This document shows positions 24,088 through 26,774 of a stretch of 39,969 nt of DNA, one piece after another (position 1 is the first letter of the stretch; each line of letters starts with the position of its first letter). The stretch is from Alcanivorax sp. (GTDB lineage: Bacteria > Pseudomonadota > Gammaproteobacteria > Pseudomonadales > Alcanivoracaceae), in contig NZ_JABURH010000159.1 of NCBI RefSeq assembly GCF_014762765.1, positions 15,932 to 55,900 on the forward strand, in the 5' to 3' direction. The position numbers and the translations under genes were made by a program. The notes beneath the pieces are model-generated. The model worked only from the letters and a program-made list of their open reading frames with translations. It had not been told where the DNA came from and did not search any database.

Positions 24088-24729
24088 ATGAAGTACGCCA
24101 TCCTGCCGGTTACCCCCTTCCAGCAAAACTGCTCCTTCCTCAAGTGCGAAACCACCGACAAGGTGGCCATCGTCGATCCGGGCGGGGATCTGGACAAGAT
24201 TCTGGAAGCACTGCAACAAGTGGGCGGCACGCCGGAAAAGATCCTTGTCACCCACGCGCATCTGGATCACATCGGTGCCGTGGCCGAGCTGGCAGACAAA
24301 CTGGATCTGCCCATCGAAGGGCCGCACCGGGACGACCAGTTCTGGATCGACATGCTGCCCCAGCAGGCGCAGATGATGGGCTTTCCCGCCTCGCGCCCGT
24401 TCACCCCGAACCGCTGGCTGGAGGACGGTGACACGGTCACCGTAGGCGATACCGAATTCCAGGTACGTCACTGCCCGGGCCACACCCCCGGCCATGTGGT
24501 GTTCTACCAGCCGGACAGCAAACTGGTGGTGGTGGGCGATGTGCTGTTCAACGGCTCAATCGGCCGCACGGATTTCCCCAAGGGCGATTTCGACACCCTG
24601 ATCCAGGCCATCAAGGACAAGTTGCTCACCCTGGATGACGATGTATCCTTCATCCCCGGCCACGGCCCCATGTCCACTATCGGCCATGAGCGGGCCAACA
24701 ATCCTTTCGTTTCCGGCAAGCACGGTTGA
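24088..24729 (+). CDS. MBL-fold hydrolase (glyoxalase II-like, YcbL family)
   Basis: A 213-residue metallo-beta-lactamase-fold hydrolase. The metal motif is THAHLDHIG (about residues 53-61), with further ligands in VRHCPGHTPGHVVF, VVGDVLF and IPGHGPMSTIGHE. The N-terminus MKYAILPVTPFQQNCSFLKCE and the sequence FNGSIGRTDFPKGDFDTL are typical of the YcbL/GloB2 subgroup, which hydrolyses S-lactoylglutathione or related thioesters in vitro. The substrate here is not fixed by context. It is divergent from mscS and followed within 7 bp by a mini-MscS gene. Confidence 0.93.
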   Translation: MKYAILPVTPFQQNCSFLKCETTDKVAIVDPGGDLDKILEALQQVGGTPEKILVTHAHLDHIGAVAELADKLDLPIEGPHRDDQFWIDMLPQQAQMMGFPASRPFTPNRWLEDGDTVTVGDTEFQVRHCPGHTPGHVVFYQPDSKLVVVGDVLFNGSIGRTDFPKGDFDTLIQAIKDKLLTLDDDVSFIPGHGPMSTIGHERANNPFVSGKHG

Positions 24730-24736
24730 GGCAGTC

Positions 24737-25270
24737 ATGGAATCCAGCGCAATGAAATGGGGTTTGACGGTTGCCGTTATTCTGTTGGCCTGGCTGCTGT
24801 CCGTGTTGCTGCGCAGTGCCACCCGACGACTGGGCCGCCGCCGTGATTTCAGCCGGGCCCGCATCTTCCAGACCGCCGTGGTCATCAACAGTGCCTGCGT
24901 GGTGCTGTCACTGCTTACCATCGGGATTCTCTGGGGGCTTAACGGCAGCGGCCTGATGGTGTTCGCCACCTCGCTGATGGCCCTGCTCGGCGTGGCCCTG
25001 TTTGCCAGCTGGTCCATGCTCAGCAACACCACCGCCGCCATCATCCTGTTCTTCAGTGCTCCCTACCGGGTGGGCGATCGCATCCGCCTGCTGGATGGCG
25101 ACAACACGGTCACCGGCCAGATCCGCTACATGGGGCTGATATTCATTACCGTGCAGGACGAACTGGGCCACCGTTACACCCTGCCCAACAACCTCCTGTT
25201 GCAGAAAACCGTGATTCGCCTGCGCGGCGACACCCTGCCCCGGGATCACAAACATTGCCGGGCTGACTAG
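24737..25270 (+). CDS. Miniature MscS-like membrane protein
   Basis: A 177-residue protein with the core of an MscS channel. Two membrane helices at about residues 6-24 and 48-70 precede a TM3-like stretch (LMALLGVALFASWSMLSNTTAAIILFFSAPYRVGDRIRLL). A beta domain follows, ending YTLPNNLLLQKTVIRL. The alpha/beta C-terminal domain of true MscS is missing; the protein stops about 20 residues after the beta domain. The frame is open to 24635, but the ATG at 24737 lies just after the MBL gene stop and begins MESSAMKWGLTVAVILLAW. Whether it gates or pairs with other subunits is unknown. Confidence 0.85.
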   Translation: MESSAMKWGLTVAVILLAWLLSVLLRSATRRLGRRRDFSRARIFQTAVVINSACVVLSLLTIGILWGLNGSGLMVFATSLMALLGVALFASWSMLSNTTAAIILFFSAPYRVGDRIRLLDGDNTVTGQIRYMGLIFITVQDELGHRYTLPNNLLLQKTVIRLRGDTLPRDHKHCRAD

Positions 25271-25308
25271 CACCCCCCCGACAGAGTAAAGTGACATCCT
25301 GTTAAAGA

Positions 25309-25331
25309 GGCCTTGCCGGTTTGGCAAGGCC
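25309..25331 (+). other. Perfect 9-bp hairpin before the Kunitz gene
   Basis: GGCCTTGCC (25309-25317) and GGCAAGGCC (25323-25331) form a perfect stem around GGTTT. There is no T-tract, so it is not a clear intrinsic terminator. It lies 39 bp after the mini-MscS stop and 29 bp before the Kunitz ATG. It could reduce read-through or stabilise the leader. Confidence 0.55.
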
Positions 25332-25360
25332 GTGTGCAGATCAAACACAAGGACGACACC

Positions 25361-25663
25361 ATGCGACTGCTTTTTCCCCTGATTATCCTCACCCTGCTGG
25401 CCGGCTGTCAGAGTGGCAACGAAGCCGGCAACAAGTTGCCGGACGCCTGCTACCAGCCGCCGGAATCCGGCATGTGCAAGGCCGCCTTCCAGCGTTACTA
25501 CTACGATCAGGACAGCGACAGCTGCAAGAGCTTTACCTGGGGAGGCTGCAAGGGCAGCGTGCCCTTCGAGACCATGGATGCCTGCGTGCAGACCTGTGAC
25601 GCCGACAACAGCGAACCCGCCGCCCCGGCGAAAATCTACCGCAGCAAGGGGGACCCGCAATGA
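25361..25663 (+). CDS. Lipoprotein with a Kunitz/BPTI-type protease inhibitor domain
   Basis: A 100-residue predicted lipoprotein. Residues 1-15 are a short signal with lipobox LLAGC, so Cys16 should be lipidated. Residues 30-79 form a Kunitz domain with six cysteines (30, 39, 55, 63, 75, 79), spaced 8, 15, 7, 11 and 3; the classical pattern is 8, 15, 7, 12, 3. The reactive site Cys39-Lys40-Ala41 equals BPTI Cys14-Lys15-Ala16, so P1 is Lys and trypsin-like proteases are the expected targets. RYYYD and WGGC match the BPTI core. The one-residue deletion falls near the BPTI Asn43-Asn44 loop. The ATG at 25361 follows AAGGA. It overlaps the next gene by 4 bp. Inhibition is inferred, not shown. Confidence 0.88.
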   Translation: MRLLFPLIILTLLAGCQSGNEAGNKLPDACYQPPESGMCKAAFQRYYYDQDSDSCKSFTWGGCKGSVPFETMDACVQTCDADNSEPAAPAKIYRSKGDPQ

Positions 25664-25998
25664 GTCAATCTGCATCCCTGGGCCTGGCCCGGGCGGTTTA
25701 TGTACTGCATCTGGTAGGCCTGATCACCGGTGGCCTGACCGCCGTTGCCGGGGTCATCATTGCCCACCTGCACGCCGGGGATGCACCGCCGCCGTTGCGT
25801 GAGCACTTCCGCTTCCAGTACCGCACCTTCTGGATCGGTCTGCTCTACAGCATCATTGCCGGCATCACCACCCTGGCCTTTATCGGTTGGCTGTTGATGG
25901 TGATCATCACCATCTGGTGGATCGTGCGCTGTGCCCGCGGCCTGAGCACCCTGAATCGCAATGTGGCACCCGCCCGGGTGGATACCTGGGGCTTCTGA
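25660..25998 (+). CDS. Small DUF4870-like membrane protein
   Basis: A 112-residue inner-membrane protein. Hydrophobic segments lie at about residues 10-35 (AVYVLHLVGLITGGLTAVAGVIIA) and 57-89 (FWIGLLYSIIAGITTLAFIGWLLMVIITIWWIVRC), the latter long enough for two passes. Between them is a charged loop with HLHAGDAPPPLREHFRFQYRTFW. This pattern resembles the DUF4870-type small membrane proteins of proteobacteria, whose function is unknown. The ATG at 25660 overlaps the Kunitz lipoprotein stop by 4 bp (ATGA), so the two are translationally coupled. That coupling is the only clue to its role. Confidence 0.8.
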   Translation: MSQSASLGLARAVYVLHLVGLITGGLTAVAGVIIAHLHAGDAPPPLREHFRFQYRTFWIGLLYSIIAGITTLAFIGWLLMVIITIWWIVRCARGLSTLNRNVAPARVDTWGF

Positions 25999-26069: not shown

Positions 26070-26774
26070 ATGCTGTCCCTGCGCCTTATCCCCCTCGTTC
26101 TCTGCACCCTGATTCTGTCCGCCTGCGCCCGCAGCCCCGTGGTCCAGCTCTACGACGGTGCCGCCAAACCTGACAGCCAGGTACTGACCGTGCGCGTGCC
26201 CAGCGAAATCGAAGTGTTCACCATCAACGGCAAGGAAGTGGATGGCGCCAACACCTTTTTCGCCACCGACTTCAAGGAACTGAAGTTCACCCCCGGCCGC
26301 TACGAGATCCTCGCCTACTACAAGGAACTGTGGCAGCTGGACGCGGACAACCATGAGATCGTGAAAACCAACCCGGCCAACTTTATCGTCGACGGCAAGG
26401 CCGGCGAGAAATGGCAGCTGGATTACGACAAACCCGCCAACGTGGATGAAGCCCGCGCCCTGGAAGACACCTTTACCGGCTGGGCCCTGAACACCGCCAC
26501 CGGGGAAAAAGTGGCCGCCCAGGAATCCAACCTGATCCTCAAGCGCGGTTTCCTGGCACCCATCACCGGCGAGGAAGTGAGCACCGCTGCCTCCGCAAGC
26601 GTGGCACCCCAACAAGCGGTCGCCCCGGCACCTGCCACCAGCGCTCCGGCTCCGGCCACTCAGGCAGCCCCTGCACCGGCCCCCGCAGCCAGCTACCTGG
26701 ATACCCTGAAAGCCCAGTGGAAACAGGCCACCCCGGAAGAGCGCCGGGAGTTTTTGCAGTGGATAGCTGAATAG
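26070..26774 (+). CDS. DUF2057-like (YccT-type) lipoprotein
   Basis: A 234-residue envelope protein. The N-terminus MLSLRLIPLVLCTLILSACA carries a lipobox (LSAC, Cys19). The main domain has VLTVRVPSEIEVFTINGKEV, FKELKFTPGRYEILAYYKELWQLDADNHEIVKTNPANFIVD and AGEKWQLDYDKPANVDEARA, which fits the DUF2057/YccT family. A Pro/Ala-rich linker (about residues 170-205) leads to a C-terminal helix SYLDTLKAQWKQATPEERREFLQWIAE, a layout I have seen in this family. The frame stays open back to 25887 but the ATG at 26070 has AGGAGA and the signal sequence. A Pho box lies 46 bp upstream, suggesting phosphate-starvation control. Function is unknown. Confidence 0.82.
   Translation: MLSLRLIPLVLCTLILSACARSPVVQLYDGAAKPDSQVLTVRVPSEIEVFTINGKEVDGANTFFATDFKELKFTPGRYEILAYYKELWQLDADNHEIVKTNPANFIVDGKAGEKWQLDYDKPANVDEARALEDTFTGWALNTATGEKVAAQESNLILKRGFLAPITGEEVSTAASASVAPQQAVAPAPATSAPAPATQAAPAPAPAASYLDTLKAQWKQATPEERREFLQWIAE

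Follow-up and report, generated by a model that had tools for sequence, protein, structure and literature searches.

Kunitz inhibitors are textbook animal proteins, occurring mainly in animals, and BPTI and its animal relatives belong to MEROPS family I2. The tri-domain Kunitz inhibitor SmCI (PDB 4bd9) is of marine worm origin. Gram-negative bacteria possess an envelope inhibitor of trypsin-like proteases in ecotin, a periplasmic dimer that is not a lipoprotein; the Alcanivorax protein described here is likewise a candidate envelope inhibitor of such proteases, with an unrelated fold. Bacterial Kunitz domains as such are already in print: five of them, KABP1-5, stem from the Acinetobacter baumannii F6W77 assembly, and some are reported to inhibit Xa and XIa and others elastase (PMC11511053). 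By this description they resemble the Alcanivorax domain in being encoded in a bacterial assembly, and differ in forming five domains of one secreted protein, presented as anticoagulants. A further point of comparison is Vibrio cholerae, where the trypsin VesB is reported to be exported by type II secretion, to stay largely on the surface and, apparently, to gain activity only once it is past the outer membrane (PMC6219818). Periplasmic accumulation of the related exported trypsin VesC appears harmful (PMC7771236). VesB and VesC resemble a candidate target of the Alcanivorax protein and are not its homologues; the available portions of these two papers name no dedicated inhibitor of either enzyme. 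No report of a Kunitz lipoprotein family in Alcanivoracaceae was found in the open-licence literature, a scope outside which most subscription journals fall, and the sole open-licence paper naming both Alcanivorax and Kunitz appears to concern a tapeworm genome. For earlier work on Kunitz domains in bacteria the same literature yielded a single relevant paper, PMC11511053. Among the points set out below, those that look new are fixation of the trait throughout the family, a loop signature of the bacterial domains, loss of two cysteines as a pair and the proposed target.

The window, that is the whole stretch of DNA analysed, comprises 39,969 nucleotides of a marine bacterium, Alcanivorax sp. 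The Kunitz gene and its surroundings contain the following features.

24088-24729, + strand: metallo-beta-lactamase-fold hydrolase, upstream (PF00753, 133.7 bits; 20 of 38 family loci, most of which span only about 3 kb, many being too short to reach this gene)
24710-25270, + strand: MscS-like channel protein, upstream, start codon uncertain (PF00924, 37.3 bits; 30 of 38 family loci)
25361-25663, + strand: Kunitz/BPTI-domain lipoprotein gene, 100 aa (translation; PF00014 match)
25361-25408, + strand: lipoprotein signal peptide and lipobox L-L-A-G-Cys16, with Gln as the +2 residue (read from the sequence)
25448-25597, + strand: Kunitz domain, residues 30-79, Cys1 to Cys6 (PF00014, AlphaFold2 model, Foldseek)
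25478-25480, + strand: P1 residue Lys40, at the position of BPTI Lys15 (alignment of copies)
25550-25582, + strand: short last loop, residues 64-74, KGSVPFETMDA, 11 residues (loop length across copies)
25660-25998, + strand: predicted membrane protein of 112 aa; its start codon and the stop codon of the Kunitz gene share the overlap ATGA (31 of 38 family loci)
26070-26774, + strand: DUF2057 lipoprotein, conserved downstream neighbour (PF09829, 136.9 bits; 38 of 38 family loci)

The frame extends from the ATG at 25361 to the TGA at 25663, with AAGGA at 25349-25353 ahead of the start codon, and encodes a protein of 100 aa beginning with MRLLFPLIILTLLAGC, in agreement with the coordinates, frame and sequence given by the first-pass annotation. 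Its product consists of a signal peptide with lipobox, a short linker, a single Kunitz domain running from Cys30 to Cys79 and, at the C-terminus, a tail. The lipobox LLAGC reported earlier is indeed present and precedes the domain, its cysteine being residue 16, and a regular expression recovers a lipobox-type motif in all 37 intact copies of the gene (36 from Alcanivoracaceae and one, in G070, from outside the family). Sorting of lipoproteins to the outer membrane is judged by the +2 rule; the residue at this position is Gln in 29 of the 37 copies and Asp in none, suggesting that the protein is probably lipid-anchored at the outer membrane. In the spacer that separates the MscS-like gene from the start of the Kunitz gene lies a perfect 9-bp hairpin (GGCCTTGCC/GGCAAGGCC, 5-nt loop, 25309-25331) that lacks a T-run, is only partly conserved in four close relatives and is a possible terminator or leader element. 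A GAGTAAAGTGAC block at 25284-25295, invariant in the window and these four relatives within a more variable spacer, is a possible regulatory site.

The first-pass annotation had recognised a bacterial Kunitz/BPTI domain from the letters alone and proposed a profile search and a structure prediction, both of which bear it out. The protein matches PF00014, the only Pfam family found in it, with 52.1 bits against a curated cut-off of 21 (E 7.7e-14), and the match spans residues 29-79 and profile positions 1-52 of 53; a comparison to NCBIfam gave no match. In a phmmer search its best PDB match is SmCI (E 2.5e-27), followed by TFPI, Kunitz-type protease inhibitor 1, boophilin and BPTI (from 2.5e-14). 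Together the profile score and these matches argue that the Kunitz identity is not due to chance. An AlphaFold2 model of the domain only, made with 60 bacterial sequences, reaches a mean pLDDT of 92.9 (the whole protein, predicted with family sequences only, 60.7), and its elements follow the Kunitz order of short helix, twisted hairpin and C-terminal helix (H4-7, E19-25, E30-36, H48-55). The best 50 Foldseek matches listed are Kunitz structures (TMq 0.77-0.86, probability 1.00, rmsd from 1.2 A), several of them from complexes with trypsin. The product of 25361-25663 is thus confirmed, by sequence and model, to carry a genuine Kunitz/BPTI domain and to be an ordinary member of PF00014.

The six cysteines (residues 30, 39, 55, 63, 75 and 79) are spaced 8-15-7-11-3 as earlier reported, and the same spacing recurs in all 37 intact copies. 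Cys39-Lys40-Ala41 aligns with the Cys-Lys-Ala reactive site of BPTI, which we take to be residues 14-15-16 of that protein, so that this part of the first reading also holds. Six cysteines, fold, reactive site and GGC core are all shared with BPTI and the animal inhibitors, and the pattern CYQP-E-G-CK-RYYYD is common to the Alcanivorax domain and the third domain of SmCI, a protein that differs in having three domains, a loop longer by one residue and an annotation as carboxypeptidase inhibitor. The equation of WGGC with the BPTI core did not survive: the Alcanivorax protein has Trp before GGC, in contrast to the Tyr of the aligned animal chains. It further differs from BPTI and the animal inhibitors in being a single-domain bacterial lipoprotein. 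The Lys P1 of the first-pass annotation falls within a consistently basic position, where 23 of the intact copies have Arg, 14 have Lys and none has another residue, and the two are exchanged even between nearest relatives, while P1' is Ala in all intact copies but one. In two other members of the Alcanivoracaceae Cys2 and Cys4 are both gone and the remaining four cysteines are intact; they are replaced by Gly and Ser in L038, where the P1 position is still Arg, and by Gly and Gly in L037, where it is Thr. Such joint loss is the outcome predicted by the BPTI 14-38 disulfide and supports a 2-4 pairing, the predicted fold agreeing with 1-6, 2-4 and 3-5. Among the copy in the window and those of four close relatives, dN/dS of the domain is 0 to 0.16 in 10/10 pairs, and the remainder of the protein is looser than the domain in nine of these ten, which supports purifying selection on the domain.

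With these properties the Kunitz lipoprotein is likely a serine-protease inhibitor, a reading drawn from sequence and predicted structure. In some animal Kunitz proteins the domain has a receptor or a channel as its target instead, and chains of mambaquaretin-1 and dendrotoxin are among the matches listed in the profile-to-PDB and Foldseek comparisons; the fold could accordingly have been put to a non-inhibitory use, for instance to bind some partner in the envelope, for which the 112-aa membrane protein encoded next to it is one possibility. This protein, for which Pfam gave no match at E 0.01, is probably co-translated with the Kunitz gene. The ATGA stop/start overlap occurs in 16 of 37 Kunitz copies, in 15 of them with the membrane protein (the window copy included), which speaks in favour of such a partner, and in L033 with the DUF2057 gene. 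Against a binding role, the membrane-protein gene is absent from 7 of 38 family loci that retain the inhibitor and present in five genomes that have lost it, and a partner function would leave the fixed Lys/Arg at P1, the nearly constant Ala at P1' and the retention of the loop disulfide cysteines in 37 of 39 copies unaccounted for. We therefore regard it as improbable, and an inhibitory function as the better reading of the reactive site.

The occurrence of the domain follows the family closely. The genome itself has a single PF00014 match; in all, 39 of 94 genomes searched carry one, namely this genome, 37 of 45 other Alcanivoracaceae and one of 48 from other families of the order. Elsewhere in the class PF00014 is met in 3 of 368 genomes sampled, and in the phylum to which a Flagellimonas belongs in 4 of 394, the centre genome itself not counted. 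Named relatives place the family as Alcanivoracaceae; the nearest are Alcanivorax jadensis (86%), Alcanivorax sp. DSM 26293 (85%) and, closest at 87%, an uncultured Alcanivorax MAG. A scan of named genomes with two patterns yielded 159 related stretches, and the hosts among the 80 listed include Neomarinimicrobiota, Bacteroidetes, Thiohalocapsa, Neptuniibacter, Arcobacter, a Spirochaetales MAG, a Nitrosopumilaceae MAG and others; as many of these are MAGs, single odd placements call for caution. Judged from these surveys, the Kunitz domain is rare beyond Alcanivoracaceae. Some of the distant hosts show arrangements of their own: a Saprospiraceae MAG (L143:5359-6393) has six tandem Kunitz domains in one open frame, with P1 residues K, E, K, E, K and R, and adjoining Kunitz open frames with different P1 residues occur in a Neomarinimicrobiota MAG (L138:6088-6496; K, E) and a Lewinella MAG (L162:3047-3777; R, L, E). 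Carriage as cargo of a mobile element was considered and rejected, as pattern scans of a viral collection confirmed no relative and plasmids gave no match for the Kunitz gene.

The one-residue deletion in the last loop had been called unusual, a judgement that stands relative to animal Kunitz domains but not among bacterial ones. All 37 intact copies have 11 residues in this loop, as do all 87 bacterial domain rows from named and surveyed genomes, which read V-P-F in 85 cases, V-P-Y in one and I-P-F in one; the scan behind these rows is partly biased toward this very loop, since one of its two patterns demands WGGCxGxV. The PF00014 surveys, which supplied the 37 intact copies and eight further loci, provide a fairer check of loop length, and among these eight six have 11 residues (three of them, L181, L185 and L186, repeating genes or genomes of the biased scan), two (L187, L188) are shorter and none is of animal length. 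By contrast, all 60 PDB chains listed, out of 141 matched by a bacterial-domain profile, have the animal-type loop of 12 residues. The broken copy L037 also reads 12 by eye. We read the 11-residue loop with V-P-F as a bacterial signature and not as a peculiarity of the Alcanivorax sp. gene.

The gene also has a settled place. Every family locus with the Kunitz gene has the DUF2057 neighbour; at the locus from outside the family (L039 in G070) none of the DUF2057, membrane-protein and MscS-like neighbours lies by the Kunitz match. The neighbouring locus could be recovered in six of the eight family genomes without a Kunitz gene. G015 has lost the Kunitz domain there but retains the stretch upstream of it and part of the signal peptide, in which the cysteine of the lipobox is missing; at the same place four related genomes have neither the MscS-like nor the Kunitz gene, and G033 has neither the Kunitz nor the membrane-protein gene. 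On a tree of BLAST-aligned DUF2057-neighbour stretches from 44 family genomes, the other two of the 46 (G023 and G031) having yielded no such stretch, absence or breakage of the Kunitz gene amounts to four changes, at least three of them on well supported branches. The shared locus and these changes indicate that the gene is an old Alcanivoracaceae trait that has been lost several times. They also bear on the suspicion, natural for a domain generally known from animals, that the gene is a functionless relic or a contaminant of animal origin: the same locus in 38 family genomes, the purifying selection, the bacterial signal peptide with lipobox and the bacterial-type loop make such an origin exceedingly improbable, and contamination or a recent transfer from animal to bacterium is ruled out by the shared locus together with the low dN/dS.

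As to the target, the first-pass annotation had suggested an own protease, and a concrete candidate can now be named. The genome has four PF00089 matches, three weaker ones (59-78 bits), which are probably HtrA-type proteins, and a strong one of 166 bits (G000:C162), encoded on a different contig from the Kunitz gene. The latter is a trypsin, about 544 aa long when counted from the probable start codon, that contains the motifs TAAHC and DSCRGDSGGP; this second motif gives it the S1 Asp of trypsin-type enzymes, which we take to be position 189 in the numbering. It ends in a GlyGly-CTERM tail (18.1 bits against a cut-off of 15.5; when three trypsins of the family were scanned, two exceeded the TIGR03501 cut-off and the third gave no match), the genome encodes a rhombosortase (149.8 bits against a cut-off of 84), and VesB of V. 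cholerae is among the PDB relatives of the trypsin. The combination of trypsin domain, GlyGly-CTERM tail and a rhombosortase in the genome makes it a trypsin of the VesB/VesC kind. The reported surface location of VesB and apparent periplasmic harm by VesC provide a setting that an envelope inhibitor with Lys at P1 would fit. The apparent activation of VesB only after it has crossed the outer membrane (PMC6219818) means in turn that a periplasmic guard may be unneeded.

The comparative evidence for this target is mixed. Trypsins at E<=1e-25 occur in 42 of 46 Alcanivoracaceae genomes, as against 10 of 48 other genomes of the order. At a lower threshold G020 gives a split trypsin match with Asp189, and G017, G028 and G033 give no trypsin of that kind even then; G017 and G028 (the latter genome 86% complete) nevertheless have an intact inhibitor. 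Asp189 is found in 76/76 trypsins that could be read in genomes whose Kunitz gene is intact, a count that excludes two second GDSGG matches inside glycine-rich tails as well as L237 and L214, which have no readable motif, and includes four trypsins without TAAHC in the stretch read and those of G070 outside the family. Position 189 is Asp in eight and Asn in four trypsins of genomes without the Kunitz gene, and Asp in three and His in one of those from the two genomes with a broken Kunitz disulfide, so that all five departures (the four Asn, in one clade, and the His) fall in genomes where the inhibitor is lost or broken. This association amounts to two evolutionary events, too few to reach significance (tree test, p 1), and the co-occurrence of inhibitor and trypsin, both near-universal in the family, represents only 2 to 4 independent pairs. 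The Asn replaces the S1 Asp in a second trypsin paralogue (L200, L202, L204 and L206) of a four-genome Alcanivoracaceae clade without the Kunitz gene. G015 has lost the inhibitor and kept two Asp189 trypsins, and seven of the eight Kunitz-less family genomes keep such a trypsin. Outside the family an S1A trypsin at E<=1e-25 accompanies the Kunitz gene in only 5 of 49 genomes, which rules out a strict pairing of inhibitor and trypsin in all bacteria.

The last figure is what would be expected if the same inhibitor, as a surface-exposed lipoprotein, were directed, in the manner of ecotin, at foreign trypsin-like proteases, whether from neighbouring cells, from predators or from an animal host. 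Further arguments for such a target are that the gene has been repeatedly lost or broken, that recombinant A. baumannii Kunitz domains are reported to inhibit Xa and XIa or elastase according to their P1 (PMC11511053), and that P1 varies elsewhere, as diverse outside targets would predict. Of the 58 rows for domains in other bacteria, 26 have Lys or Arg at P1 and 32 another residue; these rows, which are not independent, belong to the 87 distinct ones collected by a pattern fixing the first three spacings, a set outside which L173, L181 (a duplicate) and L183 fall. Within Alcanivoracaceae, however, the uniformly basic P1 and the single locus suggest a constant target, and the low dN/dS of the domain gives no sign of an arms race. 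A foreign target is thus a serious competitor, to which we would give roughly a third of our belief. Protection against own trypsins is the role we place first, though unproven, and foreign proteases follow closely, because of the trypsins kept without inhibitor in G015 and most Kunitz-less genomes, the inhibitors without trypsin in G017 and G028 and the few trypsins outside the family.

Following the own-trypsin reading, the Kunitz lipoprotein would be a standard-mechanism inhibitor, lipid-anchored and probably at the outer membrane, in which a rigid reactive loop held by the Cys39-Cys63 disulfide would place Lys40 in the S1 pocket of a serine protease of the trypsin type, with Asp189, and so block the enzyme. 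Its most likely targets would be the exported GlyGly-CTERM trypsins of the Alcanivoracaceae themselves. By quenching trypsin molecules that become active in or on the envelope, the inhibitor may protect envelope proteins and leave the released enzyme active. The fold, the lipoprotein signal, the basic P1, the purifying selection and the presence of trypsin and rhombosortase are supported by sequence and prediction; inhibition, sorting to the outer membrane, target and protective role are what we infer from them, and taken jointly the inhibitor and its own-trypsin target fall somewhat short of an even chance. More tentatively still, the Alcanivoracaceae may carry a dedicated self-protection against their own GlyGly-CTERM trypsins, in the form of an outer-membrane-anchored Kunitz inhibitor from a distinct bacterial subfamily marked by the 11-residue V-P-F loop.

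A bacterial form of the Kunitz domain with a loop signature of its own, present in several phyla and held at one locus across most of a family, points to a fold at work in bacteria. If the lipoprotein does guard against own exported trypsins, this would help to explain how Gram-negative bacteria survive with enzymes that seem harmful in the periplasm (PMC7771236), and would predict directly testable phenotypes. The Kunitz lipoprotein would then act in the envelope as an immunity factor of the protease route through rhombosortase and type II secretion.
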